From NCBI GenBank assembly GCA_002256345.1, contig NKIY01000003.1:1-64000 (forward strand): DNA of 64,000 nt. Reading direction: 5' to 3'. Of the stretch, positions 37,253 through 63,647 are shown in pieces; the first letter of the stretch is position 1, and each line of letters begins with the position of its first letter. A model generated the notes under the pieces. That model was not told where the DNA came from, searched no databases, and saw nothing but the letters and a program-made list of their open reading frames with translations. Origin of the DNA: Bradyrhizobiaceae bacterium PARB1 (GTDB lineage Bacteria > Pseudomonadota > Alphaproteobacteria > Rhizobiales > Xanthobacteraceae). Both the position numbers and the translations under genes were made by a program.

Positions 37253-37265
37253 TTTTAGACTTAAA
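37253..37265 (-). promoter_or_regulatory. Candidate MarR operator, site 1
   Basis: Reads TTTAAGTCTAAAA on the minus strand, identical to site 6 (55151). It lies 46 bases upstream of the CoA-ligase/ridA operon and fits the 13-base consensus TTTAARYYTMAAR shared by seven sites in this window. Confidence 0.65.
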
Positions 37266-37372
37266 ACATATCGGCGCAACTGCGGAAATCGGGGGCACGC
37301 TGAAATTTTTGGCGCGGACTGGCGATTGCCGCGGATAGTTTGGGCAGATGGCCTAGCGTTTAATCCGCTCCT

Positions 37373-37500
37373 GTGTCCCGGACGCGATGCGGCATACAAT
37401 GCCGCTTCGCAGAGCCGGTACCGTCAAAGGCTCCAGCGACAGGTACGGTCCCGGCTCTGCGGAGCAGCGTTTCACGCTGCACCGCGCCCGGGATACAGGC
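37373..37500. repeat. GTCCCGG-type palindromic repeat, copy 2
   Basis: Outer ends TGTGTCCCGGACGCGATGC and GCACCGCGCCCGGGATACAGG are inverted; internal GAGCCGGTACCGT and ACGGTCCCGGCTC segments also pair. Related to copies at 13289 and 57341. It sits between the convergent-facing ends of the CoA-ligase promoter region and the hydrolase gene. Confidence 0.7.
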
Positions 37501-37511
37501 GGAAGCAAAGA

Positions 37512-38327
37512 CTACGCAGTTGCCAGCGCGTTCAACCGCTGCACCATCTCCGAATCCGGATCAGCGAGCGGTGCGATGGCGGTGAAATGATTGGCGCCGG
37601 GAATGGTATCGTAGCGCGTCGGAATCGCCCTGCCCCAGACCTCGACAATGCTGCGGCTCTGGCGGAAATATTCGCTGCTCTCTTCTCCGCCAACGACCGC
37701 ATCGAGGCTGCCATGGGACGGCACCGGGCCGAACAACGGGCTGACGGCGCGGGCGCTGGCCTCGTCGAGCTGCAGCGCCCTGTTAAGGGAGGTCGGTACC
37801 AGCGGCGGTAGATCGAACAGACCGGAAATGGAGTAAGCCGCCCTCACAGTGTCGTTCGACAATACAGGATCAATCGCCTTCCAGTCGGTCGCCAGCATGC
37901 AGGCGGCGAGATGGCCGCCAGCCGAATGGCCGGAGATCACCAGCGGCCGGGTGAGTTTTGCAAGCTCGCATACCGCCATGCGCATTTGCGCGACAATATC
38001 GGCCACCGAGACCTGCGGGCAGAGATCGTAACTCGGCATCGCGACGCTGACGCCATGGCTGGTGAGGCCACGCGACAGATGGCTGAAGAAAGATGCGTCC
38101 AGCGCCTGCCAATAGCCGCCGTGAATGAAGACCACGATCGGACCTCGATCGGCAGCCGCGAAATAGTCGATCGCATGACGCGCGCCGGCCCCATAGGGAA
38201 TGACATCAGGTACATTCCCCTGCTCGCGCCAGGCCTTGGCATCGCGCGCCCAGCCGGCGATGAGTTCGCTGCTTTCGGGCACACGAGCGCGGTTGTTGTA
38301 TTCGGCTTCGAGATCGATGGCAGTCAT
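37512..38327 (-). CDS. Alpha/beta hydrolase, kynurenine formamidase-like
   Basis: 271 residues from ATG 38327, overlapping the stop of marR by ATGA. The motif HGGYW at 69-73 and the nucleophile elbow GHSAG at 133-137 (S135), with a late GANHF His, are the pattern of animal-type arylformamidases, which hydrolyse N-formylkynurenine; relatives hydrolyse N-formylanthranilate. Such an enzyme would feed anthranilate into the ring-degradation genes around it. No kynureninase or tryptophan dioxygenase is present in the window, so an N-formylanthranilate or other carbamoyl substrate is equally possible. Confidence 0.75.
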   Translation of the reverse strand: MTAIDLEAEYNNRARVPESSELIAGWARDAKAWREQGNVPDVIPYGAGARHAIDYFAAADRGPIVVFIHGGYWQALDASFFSHLSRGLTSHGVSVAMPSYDLCPQVSVADIVAQMRMAVCELAKLTRPLVISGHSAGGHLAACMLATDWKAIDPVLSNDTVRAAYSISGLFDLPPLVPTSLNRALQLDEASARAVSPLFGPVPSHGSLDAVVGGEESSEYFRQSRSIVEVWGRAIPTRYDTIPGANHFTAIAPLADPDSEMVQRLNALATA

Positions 38328-38824
38328 GGCACCTTGGCAGCTTTTTGCCCGGCCTTTTGCGCCGAGCCTTTTGTCTTGGCCAGCAGGCGCATCAGCTCGC
38401 GCACATCCTTCGGCGTCAGATCCGTAAATATCTCGGAGATCCACGTCTCGTGCTCCTCCGCCATCCGGCGAAACTCGGCGCGGCCGAGCTTTGTCAGGCG
38501 GATCACCTGGACGCGGCGGTCGGTGTCCGAGGTACGGCGGTCAACATGACCGGATTCGACGAGGCGCTCGACGAGGCCCGTCACATTGCCGTTCGACACC
38601 ATCATGCGCTTGGAGACGTCCGACAGGGTCATGCCGTCGGGGACCTTATCGAGCTGCGCCATCAGATCGAAACGCGGCAGCGTGACATCGAAGCGCTCAC
38701 GCAGGCGGCTGCGCACTTCGCCCTCGATCAGGGTGGTGCATGTCAGCAAGCGCAGCCATAGCCGCAGCTCATCGCCGTGATCTTCAGGGAGTTCGACAGC
38801 CTTGGTCTCGGAGTCGAGAATCAT
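38324..38824 (-). CDS. MarR-family regulator of the aromatic cluster
   Basis: 166 residues with a MarR winged helix (about 35-130): LPRFDLMAQLDKVPDGMTLSDVSKRMMVSNGNVTGLVERLVESGHVDRRTSDTDRRVQVIRLT. It is similar in layout to regulators of benzoate and aryl-CoA degradation, which bind the aryl-CoA or free acid. It is encoded centrally in the cluster, is coupled to the formamidase-like gene and faces the liv transporter across an intergenic region carrying site 2. The seven shared operator-like sites make it the best candidate regulator of the whole block. Confidence 0.85.
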   Translation of the reverse strand: MILDSETKAVELPEDHGDELRLWLRLLTCTTLIEGEVRSRLRERFDVTLPRFDLMAQLDKVPDGMTLSDVSKRMMVSNGNVTGLVERLVESGHVDRRTSDTDRRVQVIRLTKLGRAEFRRMAEEHETWISEIFTDLTPKDVRELMRLLAKTKGSAQKAGQKAAKVP

Positions 38825-38982
38825 GATGCGATCTTACCAGTCCGGTCGCCCGGCAGCGGATATCGCCGCCGTCCATCCACAAACGCCATGCTGCAACTGC
38901 GATCTTTTGACCTTCAAGCAATTTTCACACAACCGCAAGCCAAAACGCCGCAGGTCCACCAATCCTTGATTTCAAATAATTC

Positions 38983-38995
38983 TTTAAGCTTCAAG
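38983..38995. promoter_or_regulatory. Candidate MarR operator, site 2 (marR/liv intergenic)
   Basis: TTTAAGCTTCAAG on the plus strand, 159 bases upstream of marR and 178 bases upstream of the transporter binding-protein gene. Fits the common consensus; could mediate autoregulation and transporter control. Confidence 0.65.
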
Positions 38996-39000
38996 TAAAT

Positions 39001-39016: not shown

Positions 39017-39172
39017 TAGTCTCCGCTATCGTGTTCTTGCGCCCAAAGACTGAGCAACATTGCTTGCGGCAGCCGCCACGCTCAGCTTAAGCTGCGGGCA
39101 AAAGAACACAACTCGGTTGGGTTGAAGCGCTTAAATCGGCCGCCTGTCGCCGCCGATCGGAGGAGGACACTG

Positions 39173-40360
39173 ATGAAGAAGCATCTCAAACTGGCAGGAT
39201 TTGCCGCATTGATGAGCGCCGTCGCCATGCCGGCATTGTCACAAAGTGCGGCGGCGCAGGAGAAAATCAAAGTCGGCGTGATCGTGTCGCTGTCCGGCGC
39301 CGGCGCCGTGCTCGGTCAGCAGGCCCGCGACGGCTTCAACCTCGCCGTCAAGGATCTCGGTGGCAAGATGGGCGGCAAGGACGTCGAGGTGGTGGTCGTC
39401 GATGACGAACTCAAGCCCGACGTCGCCGTCACCAAGGTCAAGGGCCTGCTGGAACGCGACAAGGTCGATTTCGTGGTCGGCCCGATCTTCTCCAACATCC
39501 TGCAGGCGATCCATAAACCGGTCACCGAGAACAAGACCTTCCTGATCTCGCCGAATGCCGGCCCGTCCAGCTACGCGGGCAAGGAGTGCAATCCGTATTT
39601 CTATGTGACGTCGTATCAGAACGACCAGATCCACCAGATCCTGGGCAACGTCGCGCAGAAGCGCGGCTACAAGAAGATCTATCTGATCACGCCGAACTAT
39701 CAGGCTGGCAAGGATTTCGTGGCCGGCGTGAAGATGGACTTCAAGGGCGACATCGTCGAAGAGAGCTACATGCCGCTCGGCACGCTCGACTTCCAGGCGG
39801 AGCTGTCGAAGATCGCTTCGATGAAGCCCGATGCCGTGCTGACCTTCATGCCAGGCGGCATGGGCGTGAATCTCGTCAAGCAGTACAAGCAGGCCGGCCT
39901 GCTCGACCGCATCCCGTTCCTCTCCACCTTCACCGTGGATGAATCGACGCTGCCGGCGCAGCAGGACGCAGCCATCGGCATGTTCGGCGGCTCCAACTGG
40001 GCGCCGAACCTCGACACTGCGCAGAACAAGAAGTTCGTCGCGGAATATGAGAAGGCCTATAACAGCGTACCGGCAACCTATGCCTTCCAGGCCTATGACG
40101 CGGCGATGCTGATCAACAGCGCCGTCTCGTCGCTGAAGGGCGACCTCTCCGACAAGACCAAGGTGGCGGCGGCGCTGAAGAAGGCCGATTTCCCCTCGAT
40201 CCGCGGCAGCTTCAAGTTCAGCAATAACGGCTATCCGATCCAGGACTTCTACCTGACCAAGGTCGCCAAGCGCGCCGATGGCAAGTTCCAGACCGAGATC
40301 GCGGAGAAGGTGTTTACCAACTACGCCGATCGCTACGCGAAGGATTGCGCCGCACAGTAA
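39173..40360 (+). CDS. Liv-type ABC transporter substrate-binding protein
   Basis: 395 residues from ATG 39173 after AGGAGGA. Signal peptide MKKHLKLAGFAALMSAVAMPALSQSAAAQ, then the type I periplasmic-binding fold (KVGVIVSLSGAGAVLGQQARDGFNLAVKDLGGKMGG, FVVGPIFSNILQAIHKPV, NAGPSSYAGKECNPYFYVTSYQNDQ). The operon of permeases and ATPases follows, and the location inside the aromatic-degradation block suggests an aromatic acid ligand such as anthranilate, as for other liv-type aromatic transporters. Confidence 0.9.
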   Translation: MKKHLKLAGFAALMSAVAMPALSQSAAAQEKIKVGVIVSLSGAGAVLGQQARDGFNLAVKDLGGKMGGKDVEVVVVDDELKPDVAVTKVKGLLERDKVDFVVGPIFSNILQAIHKPVTENKTFLISPNAGPSSYAGKECNPYFYVTSYQNDQIHQILGNVAQKRGYKKIYLITPNYQAGKDFVAGVKMDFKGDIVEESYMPLGTLDFQAELSKIASMKPDAVLTFMPGGMGVNLVKQYKQAGLLDRIPFLSTFTVDESTLPAQQDAAIGMFGGSNWAPNLDTAQNKKFVAEYEKAYNSVPATYAFQAYDAAMLINSAVSSLKGDLSDKTKVAAALKKADFPSIRGSFKFSNNGYPIQDFYLTKVAKRADGKFQTEIAEKVFTNYADRYAKDCAAQ

Positions 40361-40450
40361 CAGCGCGACGCCGATCATCGTTACCGGGCCGTCTCTGCAC
40401 AGGCGGGGCGGCCCGGTCTTTTATTCGATCCAAGGCCACAAGTTTCTCTG

Positions 40451-41371
40451 ATGACTTTGACCCTCGCCCTCGTTCAAATTCTGAACGGCCTGCAATTCGG
40501 GCTGATCCTGTTCCTGATCGCCGCCGGCCTGACGCTGGTGTTCGGCGTGATGGATTTCATCAATCTCGCCCACGGCGTGCAATACATGGTCGGCGCGTAT
40601 CTCGTCGCCGCCTTCACCGCCATGACCGGCAGCTTCTTCACCGGTCTCGCGCTGGCGCTGCCGGCCGCGCTGCTCTTTGGCCTGCTGCTGGAGATCCTGA
40701 TCTTCCGGCATCTTTATGATCGCGATCATCTCGATCAGGTGCTGGCGACCTTCGGCGTCATCATCTTCCTCAACCAGGCCGTCAAATATGTCTGGGGTGC
40801 CGCGCCGCTGAACGTGCCGATCCCCGATGCACTGTCCGGCGCCATCGAGATCACCGATGGCCTGCTCTATCCCGTCTGGCGCCTCGTCATCATCGCCGTC
40901 GGCCTCCTAGTCGGCCTCGCGCTCTATCTCGTCGTCAACAAGACCAAACTCGGCATGCTCGTGCGCGCCGGTGCGAGCAATGCGGCAATGGTCTCCGCGC
41001 TCGGCGTCAATATCCGCCTGCTCTTCACCATCGTGTTCGGCGTCGGCGCGATGCTGGCGGGCTTTGCCGGCGCCATGATCGCGCCGATCCTGTCGGTTGA
41101 ACCAGGCATGGGCGACAATGTGCTGATCTTGGCATTCGTCGTCATCGTGATCGGCGGCATCGGCTCGATCCGCGGCGCTTTCATCGCGGCGCTCCTGATC
41201 GGCCTCGTCGATACACTCGGCCGTTTCTTCGCGCCAACCCTGCTGCGCGCGCTGCTCGATCCGTCCGCTGCGAGCCAGACCGGCCGCGCGGTGGCACCGA
41301 TGCTGATCTATATCCTGATGGCTGCCGTGCTGTTCTTCCGGCCATCCGGCCTGTTCCCGGCCAAGAAGTAA
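40451..41371 (+). CDS. Branched-chain-type ABC transporter permease (LivH-like)
   Basis: 306 residues, about eight membrane segments, starting MTLTLALVQILNGLQFGLILFLIAAGLTLVFGVMDFINLAHGVQYMVGAYL, the LivH signature with the conserved NLAHG. The inner-membrane coupling loop is at about 210-240 (LGVNIRLLFTIVFGVGAMLAGFAGAMIAPI). It forms the channel with the LivM-like partner encoded 12 bases downstream. Confidence 0.92.
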   Translation: MTLTLALVQILNGLQFGLILFLIAAGLTLVFGVMDFINLAHGVQYMVGAYLVAAFTAMTGSFFTGLALALPAALLFGLLLEILIFRHLYDRDHLDQVLATFGVIIFLNQAVKYVWGAAPLNVPIPDALSGAIEITDGLLYPVWRLVIIAVGLLVGLALYLVVNKTKLGMLVRAGASNAAMVSALGVNIRLLFTIVFGVGAMLAGFAGAMIAPILSVEPGMGDNVLILAFVVIVIGGIGSIRGAFIAALLIGLVDTLGRFFAPTLLRALLDPSAASQTGRAVAPMLIYILMAAVLFFRPSGLFPAKK

Positions 41372-41383
41372 CGGGAGCAGCCT

Positions 41384-42367
41384 ATGAACAATCTCGTCGA
41401 TCTCGATGCCGCCCCGGCCCTGGCTGCACCAGCGCGCGCCAATCGTGCACTGGTGTTGCCTGCGCTGATCTTCGCAGCCTTCGCGCTGGTGCCCCTGGCA
41501 TTGCTGCTCGGACCGCAGAGCTATGTGCTCGCCGTCGTCACCCGCATCATGATCCTCGCGCTCGGTGCCATGTCGCTCGATCTCCTGATCGGCTATGGCG
41601 CCATGATCTCCTTCGGCCATGCCGCCTTCATCGGCCTCGGCGCCTATAGCGTCGCGATCCTGGCGAGCCACGGTATTACCGACGGTTTCGTCCAGCTGGC
41701 TGCGGTCGTCGCCACCTCGGTCGTCTTCGCGCTGTTCACCGGTGCGATCTCGCTGCGGACCAAGGGCGTCTATTTCATCATGATCACCCTGGCCTTCGGC
41801 CAGATGCTGTTCTTCCTGACGACATCGCTTGCCGCCTATGGCGGCGACGACGGCCTGACGCTTGCCGCACGCAGCACCTTCTTTGGCTTGAACTTTCTGA
41901 AGAACGAATTGGCGATGTACTACGTCACCTTGGGCGTGCTGCTTGGCGCTTACATCCTGCTCCGCGCCGTGGTCGCCTCGCGCTTCGGCCGCGTGCTGCG
42001 CGGCATCCGCGAAAATCCGGTGCGCATGGAGGCGATCGGCTTTGCGCCTTATCGTTACCAACTCACCGCTTATGTGATCGCAGGTCTCATCGCCGGCGTC
42101 TCCGGCTTCCTGCTGGCCAACCAGACCGAATTCGTCAGCCCCGCCTATACCGCGTGGCAGCGCTCCGGCGAACTCATCTTCGTGCTGGTGCTCGGCGGCC
42201 TCGGCTCGTTGCATGGTGCGATCCTGGGTGCCGCAGCCTTCACGCTGCTCGCCGACATCCTGTCGCACTACACCGAAAACTGGACGATGATCTTCGGGCC
42301 GATCCTGATTCTGGTCGTGCTGTTCGCGCGCGGCGGCATCCAGAGCCTGCTTGGGGGGAAGTCATGA
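41384..42367 (+). CDS. Branched-chain-type ABC transporter permease (LivM-like)
   Basis: 327 residues, about nine membrane segments with the LivM signature GAMISFGHAAFIGLGAYSVAIL and the coupling segment RFGRVLRGIRENPVRMEAIGFAPYRYQL. It is the second channel subunit. Its stop overlaps the ATPase start (ATGA). Confidence 0.92.
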   Translation: MNNLVDLDAAPALAAPARANRALVLPALIFAAFALVPLALLLGPQSYVLAVVTRIMILALGAMSLDLLIGYGAMISFGHAAFIGLGAYSVAILASHGITDGFVQLAAVVATSVVFALFTGAISLRTKGVYFIMITLAFGQMLFFLTTSLAAYGGDDGLTLAARSTFFGLNFLKNELAMYYVTLGVLLGAYILLRAVVASRFGRVLRGIRENPVRMEAIGFAPYRYQLTAYVIAGLIAGVSGFLLANQTEFVSPAYTAWQRSGELIFVLVLGGLGSLHGAILGAAAFTLLADILSHYTENWTMIFGPILILVVLFARGGIQSLLGGKS

Positions 42368-43116
42368 ACGCCCCCCTCCTGCAACTTCAGAACCTGACCA
42401 AGAACTACGGCGCGCTACGCGTCACCGACGACGTCACCTTCGACGTCAAGCCCGACGAGCTGCATGCCATCATCGGCCCCAATGGCGCCGGCAAGACGAC
42501 GCTGATCCACCAGATCTCCGGCCATGCGAAGCCCGACAGCGGACGTATTATCTTCGACGGCATCGACATGGTGCCGCTGCCGATGGCGGCACGCGCCCAG
42601 CGCGGCCTCGTGCGTTCGTTCCAGATCACCTCGATCCTGCCGCGCTTCTCGGCGCTGGAGAATGTCGCAATCGCCGCGCAGGCGCGCGACGGATCGAGCT
42701 TCCGTTTCCTCGGTAATGCCGCGAGCGAGCGCGATCTCAACGACATCGCCATGGGCCTGCTCACCCGCTTCGGCCTTGGCGCGCGTGCGCACGTGCCGGC
42801 CGGGCAGATGTCACATGGCGAGAAACGCCAGCTGGAAATCGCTATCGCGCTGGCGGCGAAGCCGAAACTGCTGCTGCTGGACGAGCCGCTGGCCGGCACC
42901 AGCCATGATGAATCGCAGCGGCTGATCAATATTTTGCAGGAGCTGCGCAAGGAGCTCCCGATCATCCTGATCGAGCACGACATGGATGCGGTGTTCGCGC
43001 TGGCCGATCGCGTCTCGGTGCTGGTCTATGGCCGCATCATCGCCTGCGGCAAACCGCAGGACATCCGCGACAATGCCGAAGTGCGCGCTGCCTATCTCGG
43101 CGAGGAGGCCGCCTGA
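42364..43116 (+). CDS. Branched-chain-type ABC transporter ATPase (LivG-like)
   Basis: 250 residues from ATG 42364. Walker A GPNGAGKTT, signature MSHGEKRQLEIAIALA (LSGGQ position changed to MSHGE, as usual in this subfamily) and Walker B KLLLLDEPLAG. The upstream frame to 42154 overlaps the permease and is not used. Stop and next start overlap (TGATG). Confidence 0.92.
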   Translation: MNAPLLQLQNLTKNYGALRVTDDVTFDVKPDELHAIIGPNGAGKTTLIHQISGHAKPDSGRIIFDGIDMVPLPMAARAQRGLVRSFQITSILPRFSALENVAIAAQARDGSSFRFLGNAASERDLNDIAMGLLTRFGLGARAHVPAGQMSHGEKRQLEIAIALAAKPKLLLLDEPLAGTSHDESQRLINILQELRKELPIILIEHDMDAVFALADRVSVLVYGRIIACGKPQDIRDNAEVRAAYLGEEAA

Positions 43117-43814
43117 TGCTCGCTGTATCCAACCTGCAGGCCGCCTATGGCGCCGCCAAGGTGCTGTTCGATATCTCGCTGACCATCAATGCCGGCGAGG
43201 TCGTGACGCTGCTCGGCCGCAACGGCATGGGCAAGACGACCACCATCAACGCCATCATGGGCCTGCTGCATCCGACTGGCGGCAGCATCACCTTCGACAA
43301 CAAGCCGATGGCCGGGCGGCCGTCCTATCGCATCGCGCAGGCGGGGATCGGCCTTGTGCCCGAAGGTCGACAGATCTTTCCGACGCTGACGGTGGAAGAG
43401 AACCTGGTCGCCACCGCAGCCGTGCGCCATCCGCCGGCGCGCTGGACGCTGGACAAGATCTACGACCTGTTTCCGCGGCTGAAGGAACGCCGCAGCAATC
43501 TCGGCACGCAGCTCTCGGGCGGCGAGCAGCAGATGCTCGCGGTCGGGCGCGCGCTGATGACCAATCCGAAGCTGTTAATCCTTGATGAGGCGACCGAAGG
43601 TCTGGCGCCGCTGATCCGGCTCGAGATCTGGAATTGCCTGAAAAAGCTGAAGGCGGAGAAGCAATCTATTCTGGTGATCGACAAGAATGTCGATGCGCTC
43701 GCAGCGTTTGCGGATCGTCATGTGGTGATCGAGAAAGGCCGCGTGGTGTGGACCGGCACATCCGAGCAGCTGAAGAGTGATTCAACCGTGAAGGATCGCT
43801 TCCTGCATGTATAG
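43116..43814 (+). CDS. Branched-chain-type ABC transporter ATPase (LivF-like)
   Basis: 232 residues with Walker A GRNGMGKTT, signature LSGGEQQMLAVGRALM and Walker B KLLILDEATEG. The second ATPase subunit of the transporter. It ends the five-gene unit; a repeat separates it from the cupin gene 130 bases on. Confidence 0.92.
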   Translation: MLAVSNLQAAYGAAKVLFDISLTINAGEVVTLLGRNGMGKTTTINAIMGLLHPTGGSITFDNKPMAGRPSYRIAQAGIGLVPEGRQIFPTLTVEENLVATAAVRHPPARWTLDKIYDLFPRLKERRSNLGTQLSGGEQQMLAVGRALMTNPKLLILDEATEGLAPLIRLEIWNCLKKLKAEKQSILVIDKNVDALAAFADRHVVIEKGRVVWTGTSEQLKSDSTVKDRFLHV

Positions 43815-43824: not shown

Positions 43825-43906
43825 GTCATGGCCGGGCTTGACCCGGCCATCCATCTTTCGTCCTTCTCGGTTAAAGATGGGTGCCCGGGTCAAGCCCGGG
43901 CATGAC
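43825..43906. repeat. GTCATGGCCGGG-type repeat pair, copy 2
   Basis: GTCATGGCCGGGCTTGACCC faces GGGTCAAGCCCGGGCATGAC across about 40 bases, between the transporter and cupin genes. Confidence 0.8.
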
Positions 43907-43943
43907 AGCGCGTGAGGCTAACTGGACGACCAAAGGAGACAGC

Positions 43944-44402
43944 ATGACAAAAACCGAGATCGCCGGCATCACCCGCGCCAATGAGGGCATGCAGGGCATC
44001 ACCTGGAGCATCCTCGGCCAGACCTATGTGCCGAAGAACTGCACCGAGGATTCGTTCTCGTGGCACGCCACCTTCCCGCCCGGCACTTTTGTGCCGCCGC
44101 ATATTCATCCGGACCAGGACGAATATCTCTACATCCTCGAAGGCAAGCTCGACTTCTTCCTCGACGGCAACGAGACCTCGGCGACGCCGGGCGATCTCGT
44201 CCGGCTCGCCCGCGGTATTCCGCATGGCATTTTCAACAAGTCGGACCAGACTGCGAAAGTGCTGTTCTGGGTGTCGCCGAGCCGCCGGCTCTATGACCTG
44301 TTCTGGGCGATCCATAATATGAAAGAGCAGAAGCCCGAGGAGGTGGTGGCGCTGGCCGCGACCTACAACATCCACTTCCTACCGCCGCCTCCGGGCGCGT
44401 AA
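43944..44402 (+). CDS. Cupin-domain protein (paralogue A)
   Basis: 152 residues from ATG 43944 after AAAGGAGA. One cupin barrel with complete metal ligands: HIHPDQDEY (two His, one Glu) and the third His in GIPHGIFN. About half its residues match the cupin at 51552, including ILGQ, FxPxHIHPxQxE and RGIPHGxFNKSD. It could be a small dioxygenase or isomerase acting on a pathway intermediate; the reaction is not known. It follows the liv genes on the same strand with a repeat between them. Confidence 0.8.
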   Translation: MTKTEIAGITRANEGMQGITWSILGQTYVPKNCTEDSFSWHATFPPGTFVPPHIHPDQDEYLYILEGKLDFFLDGNETSATPGDLVRLARGIPHGIFNKSDQTAKVLFWVSPSRRLYDLFWAIHNMKEQKPEEVVALAATYNIHFLPPPPGA

Positions 44403-55150: not shown

Positions 55151-55163
55151 TTTAAGTCTAAAA
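55151..55163 (+). promoter_or_regulatory. Candidate MarR operator, site 6
   Basis: TTTAAGTCTAAAA, identical to site 1 read on the other strand. It lies 66 bases upstream of the five-gene operon starting at 55229. Confidence 0.65.
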
Positions 55164-55228: not shown

Positions 55229-56056
55229 GTGCCGAACTCACAAGCCCTGACAACCAAGGACGGCCGTTTCGGCTATGAAGCAAAAGGCGATGCGTCGATG
55301 ACGCCGCTGGTGTTTCTGCACGGGATCGGCGGTGCTGGCCGCGGCTGGCGCAACCAGATCGACATCTTCGGTGATCGCTACTTTACCATCGGCTGGGATG
55401 CGCCGGGCTATGGCGGATCGAAACAGCTCGATGAGCCCAGCATTCCCGGCTTTGCCGCCGCGCTGAAGGATTTTCTCGCGCAGGTCGGCGCGAAGAAGCC
55501 CGTGCTGGTCGGCCATTCCATCGGCGGCATGATCGTACAGCGTTTCCTTCACGATTATCCGGACCTCGCCGGCGCCGCGGTGCTGGCGCAGACCACCTCC
55601 GTGTTCGGTAGCTCCGACGGCGAGTGGCAGAAGAACTTTATCGATGCCCGGCTCGGGCCGCTGGAGCGCGGCGAGACCATGGTGTCGATGGCGCCAAAAC
55701 TGGTCGCCGGCCTGATCGGCGACGATCCAGATCCGAAGGGCCTCGAACTCGCGCGCGACTGCATGGCATCGGTGAAGCCGGACACCTATCGCGCATCGAT
55801 GATGTCGATGATCGGCTTCAATCTCCGCGGCGAGATCGCCGACATCAAGGTGCCGACGCTGCTGCTGTCCGGCTCCAAGGACAACAATGCGCCCGCCAAG
55901 ACCATGGCAAAGATGGCGAGCATGGTGTCCGGCGCGACCTATGTCGAACTCGAAGGCGTCGGCCATCTGGCGAGCTTTGAACGCCCGCAGGAATTCAACG
56001 ACGTGCTCGCCGATTTCCTCAAGACCTATCACAACCTCTCGGGATCATCCTCATGA
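55229..56056 (+). CDS. Alpha/beta hydrolase
   Basis: 275 residues starting at GTG 55229 right after GGAGG. Oxyanion region FLHGIGGAGRGW, nucleophile GHSIGG, acid Asp in SGSKDNNAP and catalytic His in EGVGHLASF. The pattern is that of carbon-carbon or ester hydrolases such as enol-lactonase and MhpC. In a cluster without thiolase it could open the ring hydrolytically; a thioesterase role is also possible. It overlaps the next gene by ATGA and begins the MarR-type operon. Confidence 0.85.
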   Translation: MPNSQALTTKDGRFGYEAKGDASMTPLVFLHGIGGAGRGWRNQIDIFGDRYFTIGWDAPGYGGSKQLDEPSIPGFAAALKDFLAQVGAKKPVLVGHSIGGMIVQRFLHDYPDLAGAAVLAQTTSVFGSSDGEWQKNFIDARLGPLERGETMVSMAPKLVAGLIGDDPDPKGLELARDCMASVKPDTYRASMMSMIGFNLRGEIADIKVPTLLLSGSKDNNAPAKTMAKMASMVSGATYVELEGVGHLASFERPQEFNDVLADFLKTYHNLSGSSS

Positions 56057-57330
56057 ACGCGCCTGCTCCCAAAGCCGACGGCATCGTGCTCGACAAGCCG
56101 ATGTTCGATCCCAAGGCCTTTCGTCTCAATGACGAGCAGGCTGCGTTGATCACCAAGGCACGCGAACTCGCGCAGGCGAATTTTGCGCCGCGCGCTGCGA
56201 AGTGGGACCGTGAGGCGATCTTCCCGATGGAGAATTATCGGGACATGCACAAGGCCGGCCTGCTCGGCATTTCCGTGCCGAAAGCCAATGGCGGATCGGG
56301 CGCGGACTATCAGACCTATTCGCTCGCCGCTGCCGAGATCGGTCGCTATTGCGGCGCCACGGCACTGACATGGAACATGCATGTCTGCTCGACGCTGTGG
56401 TCCGGCCCGCTGGCCGACGATCTCGACATGGACGCGCAGACCCGCGCCGATCACGAGCGCCGCCGCGCCGTGCATTACAAGCGCATTCTCGAAGATGGCG
56501 CTATCTATGCGCAGCCGTTCTCCGAGGGCGGCGCTGCTGCGGCAGGTGGTGTTGCGTTCGGCACCGAAGCAAAGCCAGTCAAAGGCGGCTGGATCGTCAA
56601 CGGCAAGAAGATCTTTGCCTCGCTGTCAGGGTCTGCAAATTTCTACGGCGTGCTCTGCACGGAAATCACCGAGGGTGAAAAAGCCTCACGCCGCAATACG
56701 CTGTATCTCGCCATCGACGCGACATCTGAAGGCGTCTCGGTCGTCGGCGACTGGGATCCGCTCGGCATGCGCGGCACGGTCTCGCGCACGCTTATCTTCA
56801 AGGACGTGTTCGTACCGGAAGACTCGGCGCTGATGCCACGCGGCGTGTATTTCCAGGCGGCGATGCGCTGGCCGCATATGTTCATGACGCTGTCGCCGAC
56901 TTACATGGGTCTCGCCCAGGCCTCCTATGATTTCACGGTGAAATATCTGCGCGGCGAAGTACCGGGCATGCCGCCAGTGAAGCGCCGCATGTATCCGACC
57001 AAGCAGATTGCGGTGGCGCAGATGCAGGTGAAGCTGGAGCAGATCAAAGGCATCTGGTTCCAGGCCGTGACCGAAGCCTGCGCCAATCCGACCAAGGAAC
57101 AGGTGCTGCGCGCCTATGCGTCGCAATACACCGTGATGGAAGGCGCCAACGAACTCGCGGCCCTCGCCATCCGCACCTGCGGCGGCCAGTCGATGCTGAA
57201 GACGCTGCCGCTGGAACGCATCTATCGCGACAGCCGCTGCGGCGCGTTGATGCTGCCGTGGACCGCCGAGCTTTGCCTCGACCGCATCGGCCGCGAAGCG
57301 CTGTATGAGCCGGGAGAGAAGGACGAGTAG
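56053..57330 (+). CDS. Acyl-CoA dehydrogenase (second)
   Basis: 425 residues. FAD/substrate segments QPFSEGGAAAAGGVAFGTEAKPVKGGWIVNGKKIFAS and C-terminal YTVMEGANELAALAIRTCGGQSMLKTLPLERIYRDSRCGALMLP. It lacks the canonical CIG/YEGT pattern in the last helix, so it is a divergent member, perhaps for an aromatic or alicyclic acyl-CoA. Coupled to the hydrolase gene by ATGA. A repeat of about 95 bases follows before the ligase gene. Confidence 0.85.
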   Translation: MNAPAPKADGIVLDKPMFDPKAFRLNDEQAALITKARELAQANFAPRAAKWDREAIFPMENYRDMHKAGLLGISVPKANGGSGADYQTYSLAAAEIGRYCGATALTWNMHVCSTLWSGPLADDLDMDAQTRADHERRRAVHYKRILEDGAIYAQPFSEGGAAAAGGVAFGTEAKPVKGGWIVNGKKIFASLSGSANFYGVLCTEITEGEKASRRNTLYLAIDATSEGVSVVGDWDPLGMRGTVSRTLIFKDVFVPEDSALMPRGVYFQAAMRWPHMFMTLSPTYMGLAQASYDFTVKYLRGEVPGMPPVKRRMYPTKQIAVAQMQVKLEQIKGIWFQAVTEACANPTKEQVLRAYASQYTVMEGANELAALAIRTCGGQSMLKTLPLERIYRDSRCGALMLPWTAELCLDRIGREALYEPGEKDE

Positions 57331-57340
57331 CCTCTTTTGC

Positions 57341-57435
57341 TCCGCAGAGTCGGGGCCATACCAAACGTCGGAGCCTGATGCGGTCCCGGCGCTGCGAAGC
57401 GGCATCAACATGCCGCATCGCGTCCGGGACACAGG
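57341..57435. repeat. GTCCCGG-type palindromic repeat inside an operon, copy 3
   Basis: TCCGCAGAGTCGGGGCC...GTCCCGGCGCTGCGAAGCGGC pairs with GCCGCATCGCGTCCGGGAC. It lies between the acyl-CoA dehydrogenase and CoA-ligase genes, so it interrupts an otherwise tight operon and carries no believable gene start. Confidence 0.75.
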
Positions 57436-57458
57436 ATCTCTCTCACTGGATCACGCCT

Positions 57459-58970
57459 TTGGACCTCTCCAGCCTCATCGCACGCAACGCGGCCTTCACG
57501 CCGGACAAGCCCGCGATTCATTTCGAGGGCGCGACGCTGACCTACGCCGCGTTCAATGCGCGCATCGAGGCCACGGCCAAGGCGCTGAAAGCCGAATGCG
57601 GCGTGGGGCGCGGAGATCGCGTCGCAATCCTCAGCCTCAACCGGCCGGACTATCTCGTCCTGCTCTATGCCTGCGCGCGGCTTGGCGCGATCCTGGTGCC
57701 GCTGAACTGGCGGCTCGCCGTCGCGGAGCAGCTCTTCATTCTGTCCGATGCCTCGGTGAAGGTGCTGGTGCTCGAAGAAGACTTTGCGGCGATCCTGTTG
57801 CAGCTTGCACAGGAACTGCCGGATACGCGCGTTGTCGCTCTCGACTTCGCACCACCTGCGCCGGCACAGACATTTGATGCATTGTTATCGAAGGCATCAG
57901 GCGACGGCAGCAATCCACATACCGACCTCACCTGCCCGTTGCTGATCGTCTATACGTCGGGCACCACGGGCCGGCCGAAAGGCGCTGTGCTGCGTCAGGA
58001 GGCTCTGCTGTGGAACGGGGTGATGAGCCAGCACATGCATGGCCTCACCTCCGACGATCACGTGCTCACGGTGCTGCCATTTTTTCATGTCGGCGGCCTC
58101 AACATCCAGACCACGCCGGCGCTGCATCACGGCGCAACCGTGACTATCCACGCGCGCTTCACGCCGGACACGACATTAGCCACGATCGCAAATGAGCGCC
58201 CAACGCTCACCGTGCTGGTGCCCGCGACCATTCAGGCCGTCAGCGAACATCCGGCATGGGCGGCTACAGACCTGTCCTGCCTGAAAGCGGTTTCCACAGG
58301 CTCCAGCATCGTTCCCCCGCATCTCATCGCACGCTTCACCGATCGTGGTATTCCGGTGCTGCAGGTCTACGGCTCCACCGAAACCTGCCCGATCGCCGTT
58401 TACACGCGGCTCGGCGGCGAAGCCCGCGCTGGATCGACCGGATTGCCGGGCCTGTGCTGCGAGGCGAAGGTGATCGACGACAGCGGTGCCGAAGTCGCAG
58501 CCGGCACGGCCGGCGAGATCGTCGTGCGCGGCTCCAACGTGTTCTACGAATACTGGGGCAATGAAACCGCCACGCGCGATGCCCTGCATGACGGCTGGTA
58601 TCGCACCGGCGATATCGGCACGCGCGACATCGATGGCTATTTCTGGGTCCATGACCGCAAGAAGAACATGATCATTTCCGGCGGCGAGAATGTCTATCCC
58701 GCCGAAATCGAGCGCGTCATCCTCGAACATCCGGATGTGGCCGATGTCGGCGTGATCGGCGTGGCCGATCCGAAGTGGCAGGAAGTGCCGGTCGCTTACG
58801 TGGTGCTGCGCCCAGACTGCGATTGCACGGCCGAGATTTTGAAGGCGCATGTCGCGACGCAGCTTGCGCGCTTCAAACATCCGCGCGACATCATCTTCGT
58901 CACCGACCTGCCGCGCACCGCGCTCGGCAAGGTGCAGCATTTCAAATTGAAGCAGACGACGCATTCGTAA
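57459..58970 (+). CDS. Acyl-CoA/aryl-CoA synthetase (second ligase)
   Basis: About 503 residues if started at TTG 57459 (MDLSSLIARNAAFTPDKPAIHFEG); the frame continues into the repeat to 57378, but that part is repeat-derived. P-loop YTSGTTGRPKG at 165-175, A5 YGSTETCP, hinge DRKKNMIISGGENVYPAEIE, and catalytic Lys in TALGKVQHFK. This is the medium-chain/aryl ligase type. Substrate unknown; it may activate a second acid entering the pathway or re-activate an opened-ring acid. It is preceded and followed by pathway genes on the same strand. Confidence 0.82.
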   Translation: MDLSSLIARNAAFTPDKPAIHFEGATLTYAAFNARIEATAKALKAECGVGRGDRVAILSLNRPDYLVLLYACARLGAILVPLNWRLAVAEQLFILSDASVKVLVLEEDFAAILLQLAQELPDTRVVALDFAPPAPAQTFDALLSKASGDGSNPHTDLTCPLLIVYTSGTTGRPKGAVLRQEALLWNGVMSQHMHGLTSDDHVLTVLPFFHVGGLNIQTTPALHHGATVTIHARFTPDTTLATIANERPTLTVLVPATIQAVSEHPAWAATDLSCLKAVSTGSSIVPPHLIARFTDRGIPVLQVYGSTETCPIAVYTRLGGEARAGSTGLPGLCCEAKVIDDSGAEVAAGTAGEIVVRGSNVFYEYWGNETATRDALHDGWYRTGDIGTRDIDGYFWVHDRKKNMIISGGENVYPAEIERVILEHPDVADVGVIGVADPKWQEVPVAYVVLRPDCDCTAEILKAHVATQLARFKHPRDIIFVTDLPRTALGKVQHFKLKQTTHS

Positions 58971-58988
58971 GAATTCAGGGGACCACGC

Positions 58989-60083
58989 ATGAAGATCGCA
59001 GTACTCGGCGGCGGCAACGGCTCTTTTGCAGCCGCAGGCGATTTCGCGCTGCAGGGCCACGATGTCCGCCTCTGGCGCCGCGATGCAGAGGCCGTGGCTG
59101 CGCACAAGGCCGCGAGTTCACGCATCAAGGTCAAGAATGCGCAGGGAACGCACGATACCCAGCTTGCGCTCGTCACCACCGACATCGCCGCCGCGATTGA
59201 CGGCGTCGAACTGATCCTCTGCCCTGCCCCCGCTTTCGCGCAGCCGGACATTGCGAAGCAGATCGCGCCGCATTTGAAGGACGGCCAGGTCGTCTATCTA
59301 CCGCCCGCCACCTTCGGCGCGATGATCTTTGCCAAGGCCGCGCATGACGCCGGCAACAAGGCGAGGGTCGCCTTCGCCGAGACCGGCACGCTGCCGTGGC
59401 TCGCGCGCAAGCATGGGCCGTTCGAAGTCGCCATCACCATCCGCGCCAAGCGGCTGCCGACCGGTGTGTTTCCGCTGTCGATGTCCGACTATGCCTGCAA
59501 GGTGATCGACAAGGCGTTTCCCAGCGTGATCGAGCCCTGCGGCGATGCGCTGTCGGGCGCGCTGATGAATGCCGGGCCGATCATCCATCCGCCGCTGATC
59601 GTAATGAATGCAGGCCCGCTCGAACACTTTCCGAAGTGGGACATCCACAAGGAGGGAACTCAGGCGTCGATCCGCCGCGTCACCGACCAGCTCGACGGCG
59701 AGCGCATCGCGATCCGCGAGGCGCTTGGTTATCACGGCCCGCATTTCCCGCTCGTCCATCACTACAATCGGGAAGGCGAGGAGTGGATGTATGGCCGCGG
59801 CTCGCATGATCGCCTGACCGATAGCGGCGACTGGCGCGAAAACATCGTGCTGCTGGAACATCGCTATATGCGCGAGGACCTGCGCACCGGCCTCTCCTTC
59901 TTCCTCTCCTGCGCCCAGCTCGCCGGCGTCGAGACGCCGCTCGTGAAGGCATTCCTCGCGATCGGCGGCGCCATCTGTGGCGAGAACTTCTTCGAGGACG
60001 GTCGCACGCTGGCCTCGCTCGGCTTTGGCGACCTATCGCGTGATGACCTGCAGAAGCTGCTGCGCGAAGGTTTTGCCGCATGA
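58989..60083 (+). CDS. NAD/NADP octopine/nopaline dehydrogenase family protein
   Basis: 364 residues. N-terminal NAD(P) domain MKIAVLGGGNGSFAAAGDFALQGHDVRLWRRD, C-terminal opine-dehydrogenase-like helical domain (GALMNAGPIIHPPLIVMNAGPLEHF with the conserved His, then REALGYHGPHFPLVHHYN). Members oxidise or form opine-type secondary amines, or are related ketopantoate-reductase-like dehydrogenases. In an anthranilate context an amino/keto interconversion would fit, but there is no direct evidence. It overlaps the next gene by ATGA. Confidence 0.8.
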   Translation: MKIAVLGGGNGSFAAAGDFALQGHDVRLWRRDAEAVAAHKAASSRIKVKNAQGTHDTQLALVTTDIAAAIDGVELILCPAPAFAQPDIAKQIAPHLKDGQVVYLPPATFGAMIFAKAAHDAGNKARVAFAETGTLPWLARKHGPFEVAITIRAKRLPTGVFPLSMSDYACKVIDKAFPSVIEPCGDALSGALMNAGPIIHPPLIVMNAGPLEHFPKWDIHKEGTQASIRRVTDQLDGERIAIREALGYHGPHFPLVHHYNREGEEWMYGRGSHDRLTDSGDWRENIVLLEHRYMREDLRTGLSFFLSCAQLAGVETPLVKAFLAIGGAICGENFFEDGRTLASLGFGDLSRDDLQKLLREGFAA

Positions 60084-61063
60084 GCCAGCGCCCTGTCATC
60101 GCATGCCTCGGCGCAGGCCGCATGGGCCGCGGCATCGCCGTGGCCTTTGCCTATGCCGGACATGAGGTCGCCATCGTCGATTTCAAGCCGCGCGACGCGG
60201 ACAAGTTCAAGGCGCTCGAAGCCGAGGCCATCGGCGAAGTGCGAAAAACCTTCGCCAGCATGGCACGCTTCGGGCTGTTGAAAGACGCCGACATCGAAAC
60301 ATTGGTGTCGCGCGTCCACGTCGTTCCGGAAGCCGATGCTGGCGCCGCGCTCAGCGGCTCGGCGATCATTTTCGAAGGTGTTCCGGAAGTGCTCGACCAG
60401 AAGCGCGAGGCGTTGGCACGCGTGTCGCAGCTTGCCGGGCCCGAGCCGATCATCGCTTCGACGACATCGACCATTCTCGTCGACGATCTATCCGGCGCCA
60501 TCGAGAAGCCAGAGCGCTTTCTCAATGCGCACTGGCTCAACCCCGCTTATCTCGTGCCCTTGGTCGAAGTCTCGCCGGGCGCGAAGACCGATCCCGCGGT
60601 GACGGCGAAAGTGAAAGAACTGCTCGAAAGCATCGGTAAGGTGCCCGTAGTTTGCGCGGCTTCGCCTGGTTATATCGTGCCGCGCATCCAGGCCTTGGCG
60701 ATGAACGAGGCCGCGCGCATGGTCGAGGAAGGCGTCGCATCGCCGGAAGAACTCGACAAGGCGATCAAATATGGCTTCGGCTTCCGCTTTGCCGTCCTGG
60801 GCCTGCTCGAATTCATCGACTGGGGCGGCGGCGACATTCTGCATTACGCCAGCAAGTATATGACGTCGGCGCTGAACAACGACCGTTACGCCGCACCGGA
60901 GATCATCGGCCGCAACATGGCCGAAGGAAAGATCGGGCTACGCACGGGCGAAGGCTTTCTCAATTATGAGGGGCTTGATGTGGATGCGTATCGTGAAGGT
61001 CGGCTGTCGGCCTTCGTGGATCTGCTGAAGCATTTTCAACTGCAGAAGCCGCCGGTGCTTTGA
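60080..61063 (+). CDS. 3-Hydroxyacyl-CoA dehydrogenase
   Basis: 327 residues. NAD domain GAGRMGRGIAVAFAYAGHEVAIVDF at 12-36, catalytic NAHWLNPAYLVPLVEVSPG segment with the conserved His and Asn, and GYIVPRIQALAMNEAARMVEEGVASPEELDKAIKYGFGFR. It is a stand-alone dehydrogenase without a fused hydratase. It would oxidise a 3-hydroxyacyl-CoA with NAD+. Overlap with the upstream gene (ATGA) puts it at the end of the 55229-61063 operon. Confidence 0.88.
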   Translation: MSQRPVIACLGAGRMGRGIAVAFAYAGHEVAIVDFKPRDADKFKALEAEAIGEVRKTFASMARFGLLKDADIETLVSRVHVVPEADAGAALSGSAIIFEGVPEVLDQKREALARVSQLAGPEPIIASTTSTILVDDLSGAIEKPERFLNAHWLNPAYLVPLVEVSPGAKTDPAVTAKVKELLESIGKVPVVCAASPGYIVPRIQALAMNEAARMVEEGVASPEELDKAIKYGFGFRFAVLGLLEFIDWGGGDILHYASKYMTSALNNDRYAAPEIIGRNMAEGKIGLRTGEGFLNYEGLDVDAYREGRLSAFVDLLKHFQLQKPPVL

Positions 61064-61172: not shown

Positions 61173-61180
61173 AGTGTTGT

Positions 61181-61942
61181 TCACACTTCCGGAAAGCCGC
61201 GCAACAGATAGCCGCGCAGCGCGTGCAGCAGACTGTTCAGGATCAGGCCCAGCAGCGAGATCATGATCAGCGGGACGAACATGTCCACGGTCTGGAATGT
61301 GCGCGCCGCTTGCACCAGCATGTGGCCGAGGCCATCGGTCGAGGTGATCATCTCGGCGAGGAATACCACGATGCAAGAGATCACGAGGCCGATCCGGCAG
61401 CCGGTGAGGATCGACGGCATCGCTGCCGGCAGCACCACCTTGAACAGGATCTGCCAGCGCGGCGTGCCGGCGGCCTGCGCCGACCAGATCAGCTTCTGCT
61501 CCACCATCGACGCACCGTAATAAGTGGACAGCAGGATTGGAAACAGCGCGTCAGCGGCGACCAGCGTGATCTTGGACGCATGGTCGAAGCCGAGGATGAG
61601 CAACAGCGCCGGATAGAGCGCAACCTTCGGGATCGGCGCCAGCACGCGCACCAGCGGCTTCACCACGGCATTGATCACCGGACTCACGGCAGCCGCAAGA
61701 CCGATCAGAACGCCGAGCACCACGGCAATGCCGAAGCCTGCAAACAGGCGGATCAGCGTCGCAGCGAGATCGTGCAGGAAATCGGCGGTGAAGAACTCCG
61801 TGGCCAGACGGCCGAACACCGCGCCGGGTGGCGGCAGCAGATTGGTCGGTGCGTAGCCGAACGAGACCAGCGACTGCCACAGCGCCAGAAACAGCGCGAT
61901 CGGGATGAGGCCGACAAGGAGGGAGTTGACGCGCGCGCTCAT
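61181..61942 (-). CDS. ABC transporter permease (NMT1/taurine-nitrate type), subunit 2
   Basis: 253 residues with about six membrane segments and the EAA loop AAGTPRWQILFKVVLPAAMPSILTGCRIGL. It belongs to the group that transports small organic acids, sulfonates or nitrate. It starts 7 bases after the stop of the other permease gene. Two different permeases in one operon imply a heterodimeric channel. Confidence 0.87.
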   Translation of the reverse strand: MSARVNSLLVGLIPIALFLALWQSLVSFGYAPTNLLPPPGAVFGRLATEFFTADFLHDLAATLIRLFAGFGIAVVLGVLIGLAAAVSPVINAVVKPLVRVLAPIPKVALYPALLLILGFDHASKITLVAADALFPILLSTYYGASMVEQKLIWSAQAAGTPRWQILFKVVLPAAMPSILTGCRIGLVISCIVVFLAEMITSTDGLGHMLVQAARTFQTVDMFVPLIMISLLGLILNSLLHALRGYLLRGFPEV

Positions 61943-61949
61943 GATCCCC

Positions 61950-62735
61950 TCACGTGAAGCTCAGAGGCATGTCGTCGCGCGGCTGCGACCACTTCACCAG
62001 ATACAATCGAATGCGCTCGAACACCGCATCGAAGATGATGCCGAGCAGGCCGACGATCAGGATCATCGCAAACACCGTGTCGTACTGCGCCATGTCGAGC
62101 GCATTGAACAGGATGTTGCCGGCGCCATTCTGCCGCGCGATCATTTCCGAGGTGATCATGGTGATCAGCGCCAGCACGAGGCCGGTGCGGCAGCCGGTGA
62201 GAATTTCAGGCAAAGCGGCCGGCAGCACGATGCGCAGCATGCGCGACGGCGCCGACATGCCCATCGCCGCCCCGGACCACAGCATCTTTTCTTCCACAGC
62301 CTTGCTGCCCTGGAACGCGTGATAGATGATCGGCAACGAGACGCCGAGAAAGATCACCAGCGTCTTGGAGACATCGCCGACACCGAGCCACAGCATGATG
62401 ATCGGCATCAGCGCCGCCTTCGGCACGGGATAGATGATCATCATCAGCGGATTGAAGAAATCCGCCACCGCCTTGATACGCCCCATCAAGAGGCCGAGCG
62501 GAATCGCGAAACAGACCGCCAACGACAGGCCGATGGCCATGCGGCGCAGGGAATCGAGAATGTTGCGGATCGATTCCTTGTCGGTGAGGATCGCCGGCAC
62601 CGCCTTCAGCGTCTCGATGGCGGTCGGGAAGCTTTCGGTGCCGAGCCGCATCGACGCGAATTGCCAGACGCAGAGCAGGCCGACGCAGGCGAAAAACGGC
62701 GACAGTGCTTTGAGCAAGCCGCGCGTGCTCATCAC
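61950..62735 (-). CDS. ABC transporter permease (NMT1/taurine-nitrate type), subunit 1
   Basis: 261 residues, about six membrane segments, EAA loop [29 protein letters not shown]. Overlaps the ATPase stop (ATGA at 62732-62735). Paralogue of the permease at 61181, sharing LPAAxPxILTGCR. Confidence 0.87.
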
Positions 62736-63595
62736 ATGTCTTCCGCGCGGTCGTCGATCATCTTCTCGATATCGACGATATACTTCTGGAAGCGTGCATC
62801 GAGCAGCAGATCGGCGCGCTTGCGCGGGCGCGGCAGATCGATCTCGACGATCTCCTTGATGCTGCCGGGTGAGCGCGACATCACGATCACCTTGTCCGAC
62901 AGATACACCGCCTCCTCCACCGAATGGGTGACGAACAGTACGGTCTTGCGTTGCGTGTCCCAGATATCGAGCAGGTCGTTCTGCAGGCGTGTGCGCGTAT
63001 GCGCATCGAGCGCGCCGAACGGCTCGTCCATCAGCAGAACGACGGGATCATAAGCCAGCGTGCGCGCGATCGCGACGCGCTGCTTCATGCCACCGGAGAG
63101 TTCTTTCGGAAAGAATTTCTCGTAGCCCTTGAGGCCGACCATCTCGAGCAGTTTGCGCCCGCGGCTATCGGCTTCAGATTTTCTGATACCTTGCTGCAGC
63201 ATGCCGTACATGACATTGCCGAGCACGGTCTTCCACGGAAACAGCGCGAATTCCTGAAACACCGGGCCACGATCGGGACCCGGACCGGTGATCACCTTGC
63301 CCTTCACCTTCGCGCTGCCTTCGGTCGGCTTGACGAAGCCTCCGACGATATAGAGCAGCGTGGACTTGCCGCACCCCGAAGGCCCAAGGATGGAGACGAA
63401 GGCACCTTCGTCGATCGCGAGATTGATATCCGACAGTGCAAGATGGCTTTGCCGGCCCGAAGTCTGGAAACGCTGCGAGACGTGATCGATTTCGATCATC
63501 GGCTCGGCAGCTTTGCGACTGGCAACCGGTTCGAGCTTGGTCGGAGCGTCCGAGCGCAGTGTTGCCACTTTCATTCCCGGTCCTTCATTGGCCAT
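62732..63595 (-). CDS. ABC transporter ATPase (SsuB/TauB-like)
   Basis: 287 residues. Walker [10 protein letters not shown], signature [16 protein letters not shown], Walker [14 protein letters not shown] and H-loop [13 protein letters not shown]. It drives the two permeases that follow. ATG 63595 is used; ATG 63574 has a good AAGGA at 6 bases and is a fair alternative. MarR-like site 7 lies 40 bases upstream of 63595. No solute-binding protein is encoded in the window next to it. Confidence 0.88.
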
Positions 63596-63634
63596 GACAG
63601 CGTTGCTCCAACATAGCCAGAACCGGCCGTTATT

Positions 63635-63647
63635 TTAAGCTTCAAAT
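63635..63647 (-). promoter_or_regulatory. Candidate MarR operator, site 7
   Basis: TTTAAGCTTCAAA on the plus strand, 40 bases upstream of the ATPase start. It differs from site 2 only in the last base. Confidence 0.65.

Follow-up and report, generated by a model that had tools for sequence, protein, structure and literature searches.

The 64,000-nucleotide stretch of Bradyrhizobiaceae bacterium PARB1 analysed here (contig NKIY01000003.1, positions 1 to 64,000 of the forward strand; hereafter the window) contains a block of genes with the appearance of a coenzyme A (CoA)-dependent pathway for anthranilate degradation, together with two ATP-binding cassette (ABC) transporters and a gene for a MarR-family regulator. 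Distributed between these genes are seven matches to a single palindromic pattern. Our reading, to which comparative sequence analysis leads us to assign a probability of roughly 0.83, is that these are operators of the block-encoded MarR protein, which is predicted to repress the anthranilate-degradation units. The genes are arranged as follows.

35543..37207, minus strand: benzoate-CoA-ligase-family protein (TIGR02262, 399 bits against a cut-off of 375), probably a 2-aminobenzoate-CoA ligase
38324..38824, minus strand: MarR-family regulator (Pfam MarR_2), the proposed binder of the palindromes
39122..43814, plus strand: branched-chain-amino-acid-type ABC transporter, livKHMGF
43881..44402, plus strand: cupin protein downstream of livF (PF07883, 66 bits)
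44615..45865, minus strand: FAD-dependent monooxygenase (NF005720, 565 bits against a cut-off of 400)
45924..48275, minus strand: bifunctional 2-aminobenzoyl-CoA (salicylyl-CoA type) monooxygenase/reductase, 783 amino acids from the selected start
48543..49394, minus strand: enoyl-CoA hydratase (ECH) family protein (NF006107, 468 bits against a cut-off of 330)
49437..50195, minus strand: short-chain dehydrogenase (SDR)
50290..51315, minus strand: AraC-family regulator, no operator upstream
51591..53630, plus strand: cupin and FMO-like monooxygenase genes, no operator upstream
53767..54942, minus strand: acyl-CoA dehydrogenase 1
55229..61063, plus strand: alpha/beta hydrolase, acyl-CoA dehydrogenase 2, CoA ligase 2, octopine-DH-like protein and 3-hydroxyacyl-CoA dehydrogenase (NF006125)
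61181..63595, minus strand: NitT/taurine-type ABC transporter, ATPase and two permeases

The regulator has the MarR winged-helix domain, scoring 46.0 bits against PF12802 (cut-off 27) and 37.3 bits against PF01047 (cut-off 24.6). An AlphaFold2 model of the protein is likewise a winged helix (pLDDT 89.4, pTM 0.79), the top Foldseek matches of which are MarR-family proteins, several with operator DNA, including MftR-DNA, MarR, MexR and FabT-DNA. A fused flavin monooxygenase and old-yellow-enzyme-type reductase, found alongside an aryl-CoA ligase, is how aerobic 2-aminobenzoate (anthranilate) degradation is organised in Azoarcus evansii. Both appear to be encoded in this cluster: the ligase exceeds its TIGR02262 cut-off, and the monooxygenase/reductase matches NF006101 (salicylyl-CoA 5-hydroxylase/oxidoreductase) at 1123 bits against a cut-off of 1078 when scored on the longer open reading frame (ORF) at 45924-48386, with the match spanning residues 38-792 of the 820-amino-acid ORF. 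Its C-terminal half has structure matches of the old-yellow-enzyme type, and its N-terminal half matches VioD. The same arrangement is given for A. evansii in PMC3534580.

Exact matches to the pattern TTTAARYYTMAAR are found in the window at 37253 (minus strand), 38983, 48324, 50234, 54979, 55151 and 63634. An earlier note on this DNA had listed these seven 13-mers, and all were located again by pattern matching, the last of them at 63634 rather than 63635; sites 3 and 5 are indeed identical to one another, as are sites 1 and 6. The rarity that had been supposed for such sequences is evident from shuffling, which gave a chance expectation of 0.01 (100 shuffles, none of which reached seven). 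However, the repeating unit is not the 13 bp originally proposed, but a 12-bp palindrome, even in length and flanked by conserved A/T positions. Its ideal form, TTTAAGCTTAAA, is embedded within a 24-bp consensus, AAATATTTTAAGCTTAAAATAATT. As read from their sequences, the window sites each agree with this form at 10 or 11 of its 12 bases, equivalent to one or two mismatched pairs. Out of 60 palindromes of equal composition, TTTAAGCTTAAA took first place whichever of two thresholds was applied, both in the window and in each of three sets of relatives.

The fetched marR loci used for motif building contained 129 sites, only two of which were inside a homologous gene; 101 non-redundant sites, each with a gene start 5-130 bp downstream, gave the oriented consensus AaaTatTTTAAGCTTAAAaTAatt. 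The consensus AAATATTTTAAGCTTAAAATAATT, which is symmetric over 24 bp, was built from 56 sites of other genera, and both a matrix and a sequence model were trained only on these (each having at least 11 of 12 matches). This other-genera matrix placed the seven window sites at ranks 1-7, with scores from 36.4 down to 15.9 bits, giving the following set of predicted operators.

Operator 1, 37254..37265, minus strand: TTTAAGTCTAAA, 10/12; 46 bp upstream of the CoA ligase gene; 30.5 bits, rank 3
Operator 2, 38983..38994, plus strand: TTTAAGCTTCAA, 11/12; marR/liv intergenic region; 30.8 bits, rank 2
Operator 3, 48324..48335, plus strand: TTTAAACCTAAA, 10/12; 48 bp upstream of the 2-aminobenzoyl-CoA monooxygenase/reductase gene; 36.4 bits, rank 1
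Operator 4, 50234..50245, plus strand: TTTAAACTTCAA, 10/12; 38 bp upstream of the SDR-ECH unit; 28.9 bits, rank 4
Operator 5, 54979..54990, plus strand: TTTAAACCTAAA, 10/12; 36 bp upstream of acyl-CoA dehydrogenase 1; 26.8 bits, rank 6
Operator 6, 55151..55162, plus strand: TTTAAGTCTAAA, 10/12; 66 bp upstream of the unit running from the alpha/beta hydrolase to the 3-hydroxyacyl-CoA dehydrogenase; 15.9 bits, rank 7
Operator 7, 63634..63645, plus strand: TTTAAGCTTCAA, 11/12; 38 bp upstream of the NitT/taurine-type ABC transporter operon; 27.8 bits, rank 5
Candidate weak eighth site, 38906..38917, plus strand: TTTGACCTTCAA; 81 bp upstream of marR; 8.3 bits, rank 8

Six of these had been placed 37-66 bp ahead of start codons; the distances found (46, 48, 38, 36, 66 and 38 bp) reproduce this range approximately, with 36 bp as its lower end, and depend on the start codons selected in the analysis. 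The remaining one, operator 2, lies in the gap between marR and liv as described; its distance to marR is 158 bp, and that to the first livK ORF start 127 bp. Below the seven sites, the matrix scored 38906 at 8.3 bits and everything else in the window at no more than 0.1 bits, whilst the maxima of 20 shuffled windows averaged 0.8 bits, the highest being 17.3 bits. The site at 38906 may possibly serve in marR autoregulation, its score not being significant alone. Operator 6 is the weakest of the seven, falling below the highest shuffled-window score (one of the 20 shuffles), and was not returned by a genome-wide search with the sequence model (E≤10); it is accepted because of its position and its presence in three Tardiphaga relatives. 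Scans of the window for Rfam families and tRNA genes gave no matches.

Across the 6,953,485 bases of the genome there are nine exact matches to the pattern, seven of them within the block, and two to a reversed control pattern. With one mismatch allowed the pattern has 41 matches (many representing one place on both strands) against 54 for the reversed control; as it is then no commoner than the control, the signal is that of the block only. The model trained on other genera returned seven places at E≤10 (best E 0.05, with the best 150 of 337 candidates scored), comprising six of the block sites and C1:359743. The dense genome-wide occurrence at unrelated promoters or inside genes that would have spoken against the earlier reading was thus not seen with either the exact pattern or the model, seven of nine exact matches and six of seven model hits lying inside the block. 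Taken together, the shuffle counts, the genome-wide counts, the ranking among 60 palindromes and the matrix ranks lead us to reject a chance origin for these sites.

The single model hit elsewhere, at C1:359743, is an 11/12 operator (E 0.24) situated 75 bp upstream of a gene for a SnoaL-like protein, around 296 kb from the block. It is present at 10-11/12 in three of the four genus relatives whose alignment spans the position, the remaining eight relatives in the search having no alignment over this stretch, and is likely to be a target outside the block. An exact 13-mer at C26:121709, between divergent genes named by eye as exonuclease-III-like and RND-type membrane-fusion proteins, is identical in four genus relatives; it was not counted as an operator, since its flanks are well conserved too and it is absent from the results of the extended model search. 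A further candidate, at C1:372648, was dropped, as roughly 325 bp separate it from the closest start of a gene that was seen.

Of the 149 family genomes, 75 contain a homologue of marR (E≤1e-30). Operators were sought in 60 loci, all chosen from marR matches, with 20 each from the family, the class and a draw from the phylum; the family loci extend over 40 kb around marR (one being 31 kb and one 39 kb). In the family set there are 65 sites with at least 10 of 12 matches to TTTAAGCTTAAA, 64 of which precede a block-gene homologue by no more than 300 bp, with none falling inside such a gene. Such an upstream site was present at all 20 family loci (14 at the more stringent level of at least 11/12), at 16 of the 20 class loci (seven at ≥11/12) and at 11 of the 20 phylum-draw loci (ten at ≥11/12); these last include all five of those inside the class and six of the 15 outside. 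Sites were in diverged forms in two relatives, G013 and G060. The site has been kept despite gene rearrangement for the ligase, monooxygenase/reductase, SDR, acyl-CoA dehydrogenase, hydrolase unit, liv and marR, as well as for the NitT/taurine-type operon (in G026 and G140). The operator thus tracks both marR and the target genes, in agreement with the earlier suggestion of a single MarR regulon that includes two transporters and most of the pathway units.

The MarR proteins of the class and phylum sets have identities of 39-65%, for the rows aligned. Within the predicted recognition helix, N80 and T82 are invariant in 55 MarR proteins, and the heptad is SNGNVTG in 25 of these, varying mainly at its first two positions. 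In a hand-picked comparison, the exact pattern was found in 32 of 36 marR-positive and four of 17 marR-negative genomes; the totals, in which near-palindromes can count twice, were 152 against 66 for the control in the former, and six against 19 in the latter.

Other occurrences of the operator were observed in individual relatives. In G024, at a great distance from the marR block, a perfect palindrome (L199:1686) separates the gene of a periplasmic binding protein (PF13458) from that of an acyl-CoA dehydrogenase. In G143 two 11/12 sites (L202:2819 and 4718) flank a dihydroxy-acid-dehydratase gene, which has genes for an amidohydrolase and an SsuA-type binding protein beside it. No substrate-binding protein was seen beside the ATPase and permeases of the NitT/taurine-type operon at 61181-63595; in G038 and G092, an ORF resembling such a protein by eye precedes the ATPase and carries the operator.

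The nature of the signal is suggested by operons outside the block. In G024, G064 and G086 a perfect palindrome is found directly upstream of an operon encoding an alpha/beta hydrolase, tryptophan 2,3-dioxygenase and kynureninase; the G024 dioxygenase scores 430 bits against TIGR03036 (cut-off 390.7), the kynureninase matches PF22580, and the hydrolase is of the hormone-sensitive-lipase type (NF058665, 377.5 bits against 320), its gene position indicating that it may be the arylformamidase of the pathway. In three more relatives (G105 and G122 at 10/12, G114 at 11/12) the site is upstream of kynureninase, with the dioxygenase gene next. The operator is therefore present at all six family dioxygenase loci with at least 65% identity to the query. 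Tryptophan dioxygenase and kynureninase lead to anthranilate, and the operator ahead of their genes in six relatives hence points to anthranilate or its CoA ester, 2-aminobenzoyl-CoA, as the inducer; between these two, the CoA ester would be favoured by likeness to the regulators BadR and CouR.

The most durable alternative concerns this ligand, which might instead be another aromatic such as salicylate or salicyloyl-CoA. NF006101 is, after all, named for a salicylyl-CoA 5-hydroxylase, and the sequence of the monooxygenase/reductase leaves substrate specificity unreadable; the sharing of the operator with the genes leading from tryptophan to anthranilate nevertheless makes this unlikely, though by no means negligible.

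With regard to the protein that binds the sites, a different, unlinked MarR-family member of the same specificity might be responsible. Second MarR proteins, 46-50% identical to the first, are encoded close to the same operator in G114 (L196:7834) and G064 (L197:5990), where the sole monooxygenase/reductase match obtained (51% identity) is close by. Specificity may thus be subfamily-wide, and have arisen before the two MarR types diverged. However, the genome to which the window belongs gave just one homologue (E≤1e-30, with the best 24 of 40 candidates scored), so that an unlinked binder appears quite improbable.

Equally hard to sustain is the proposal that the palindromes are shared promoter elements, namely the A/T-rich -10 regions of one sigma factor. 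The hexamer TAAAAT does form the 3' half of 49 of the 101 oriented sites, and one promoter-like match in the window, a minus-strand TTGCCA-16-TAAAAT, overlaps operator 3, this being the clearest such case. Against this, the motif is symmetric over 24 bp and ranks first of the 60 equal-composition palindromes, it is nearly absent elsewhere in the genome, and it is scarce in the 17 marR-negative genomes, where its six matches are outnumbered by those of the control. The simplest reading is of a repressor covering the -10 side of the promoter. Finally, that the AraC-family regulator (50290-51315) binds the sites, with marR a passenger, can be set aside as marginally less probable still: its gene lies in the block and adjoins site 4, but a homologue of over 40% identity is found in just five of the 20 family stretches (which were chosen by marR, the AraC count covering these stretches only), whereas all 20 have both sites and marR, and a symmetric palindrome is unusual for an AraC protein.

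The block-encoded MarR protein hence remains our favoured binder, as the earlier note had supposed, the comparison being supported by the 15 site-bearing family stretches without an AraC homologue and by the co-occurrence of marR with the monooxygenase/reductase. Searching the 149 genomes for the enzyme at E≤1e-150 gave 73 with both genes, two with marR alone and one with the enzyme alone, and in 66 of the 74 genomes with an enzyme match this shares a contig with the marR match and is no more than 20 kb from it. Among the eight remaining genomes, one is without marR, three have a hit near the start of a contig and four have the enzyme on a different contig from marR.

A number of observations nonetheless weigh against this interpretation. 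The co-occurrence counts are raw, the relatedness of the genomes being uncorrected, and in G040, G112, G072 and G129, which belong to one genus (g40), a 51-52% identical enzyme is encoded on a contig other than that of marR. In the matrix scan of the window, no operator was found upstream of either the araC unit or the cupin-FMO unit. Four of the 20 class loci (L087, L088, L095 and L101) and nine of the 20 phylum-draw loci, all nine outside the class, lack a site of at least 10/12 upstream of a block-gene homologue, which argues that the operator is not universal; at L207 and L208, both outside the class, few or no block genes were seen beside marR. Four of ten family dioxygenase loci (40-53% identity) have no site in the fetched flank, and in seven genomes of the window's own genus, probably Tardiphaga, no tryptophan dioxygenase was found at E≤1e-40, so that the link to tryptophan rests on the other relatives; in this genus anthranilate would perhaps come from elsewhere, by means of the two transporters. 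With regard to promoters, the enrichment of a -35-like match 16-18 bp upstream of the sites (2.87, against 2.38 ± 0.08 in shuffled sequence) is modest when the opposite-strand control is 2.53, and the five promoter-like sites between 37200 and 55300 are no excess over the 3.8 in shuffles.

MarR regulators of aromatic catabolism are already known, and several can be compared with the one described here. BadR of Rhodopseudomonas palustris and Aromatoleum CIB similarly represses a ring-degradation pathway proceeding via CoA thioesters and responds to a CoA intermediate (PMC9795900). Its operator is reported as CAATacATTG, or CAAN4TTG (PMC9795900), and as ATTTGAT-N4-ATCAAAT (PMC13118786); by contrast, the operator here is TTTAAGCTTAAA, no CAAN4TTG can be read in the 24-bp consensus, and the target genes differ. 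CouR of Rhodococcus jostii RHA1 and R. palustris is also a MarR repressor, with an inverted-repeat operator at the promoter and an aryl-CoA inducer (PMC4737184, PMC10458429). In the RHA1 type, the CoA phosphates are contacted by Arg36 and Arg38. The RHA1 operator, cATTGA-N5-TCAATg, is at the -35 box of another pathway, whereas the 24-bp repeat of this study, in which that sequence cannot be read, is on the -10 side. In Corynebacterium glutamicum, AcsR regulates aromatic-compound genes from a palindrome in the -10/-35 region, but with an AATTTA-N9-14-TAAATT operator, catechol as its ligand, and a different lineage and targets (PMC13118786). On the basis of these sequence differences, the BadR, CouR and AcsR operators were each rejected as the identity of the palindrome.

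The IadR/IacR proteins of Variovorax, Pseudomonas and Bradyrhizobium, plant-associated bacteria, control the catabolism of indole-3-acetate and are likewise of the MarR family (PMC9613470); the present protein has only remote sequence similarity to them (7kua, E 3.5e-8). An auxin (iad/iac) locus, which would include ring dioxygenase genes, seems less likely, as none was seen in the scanned ORFs of the block, which are part of those in the window. Amongst solved structures, the best sequence match is 3boq, a MarR-family protein of Silicibacter pomeroyi (E 1.5e-21), for which the listing gives no function. A repressor answering to anthraniloyl-CoA, MeqR2 of Arthrobacter Rue61a, is reportedly PaaX-type rather than MarR; the accessible part of PMC3534580 mentions only PaaX-related regulators, the name MeqR2 being absent from it. 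The corresponding parts of PMC10005059 and PMC5343134 respectively state that enzymes of the anthranilate CoA pathway were not found in Rhodococcus strains, and list one MarR regulon for aromatic amino acids, that of HmgS for tyrosine. No earlier description of this regulator, operator or regulon was found in the open-access papers searched, with subscription papers and regulon databases outside the scope. The kind of system, a MarR regulator of an aromatic or aryl-CoA pathway, is known, but this pairing of regulator and operator appears to be new.

In the mechanism we propose, a MarR dimer would bind the 24-bp inverted repeat, which is situated 36-66 bp upstream of six of the starts (farther for liv and marR) and the downstream half of which often holds a TAAAAT-like -10 hexamer. 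The bound dimer would block RNA polymerase, such that each unit is repressed. Anthranilate would enter through the two ABC transporters or, in relatives, arise from tryptophan through kynurenine, and would be converted by the ligase to 2-aminobenzoyl-CoA; either anthranilate or its CoA ester would then release MarR, inducing all of the units together.

These results provide a regulator, an operator matrix and a list of targets for the CoA-dependent anthranilate pathway, the matrix making regulon membership predictable in many soil bacteria, and suggest anthranilate, or something related to it, as the substrate of both transporters. Tryptophan and kynurenine turnover would be tied to one sensor, which could double as an anthranilate biosensor. 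More tentatively, and at odds that we would put just short of even, there may be a widespread anthranilate catabolon, in which an old MarR subfamily, represented across the sampled Alphaproteobacteria and also in certain further lineages of the phylum, senses 2-aminobenzoyl-CoA and acts via one 24-bp operator embedded in the -10 region. It would coordinate tryptophan-kynurenine breakdown, anthranilate activation, ring attack and two ABC uptake systems, with targets being gained and lost whilst the operator travels along with them.

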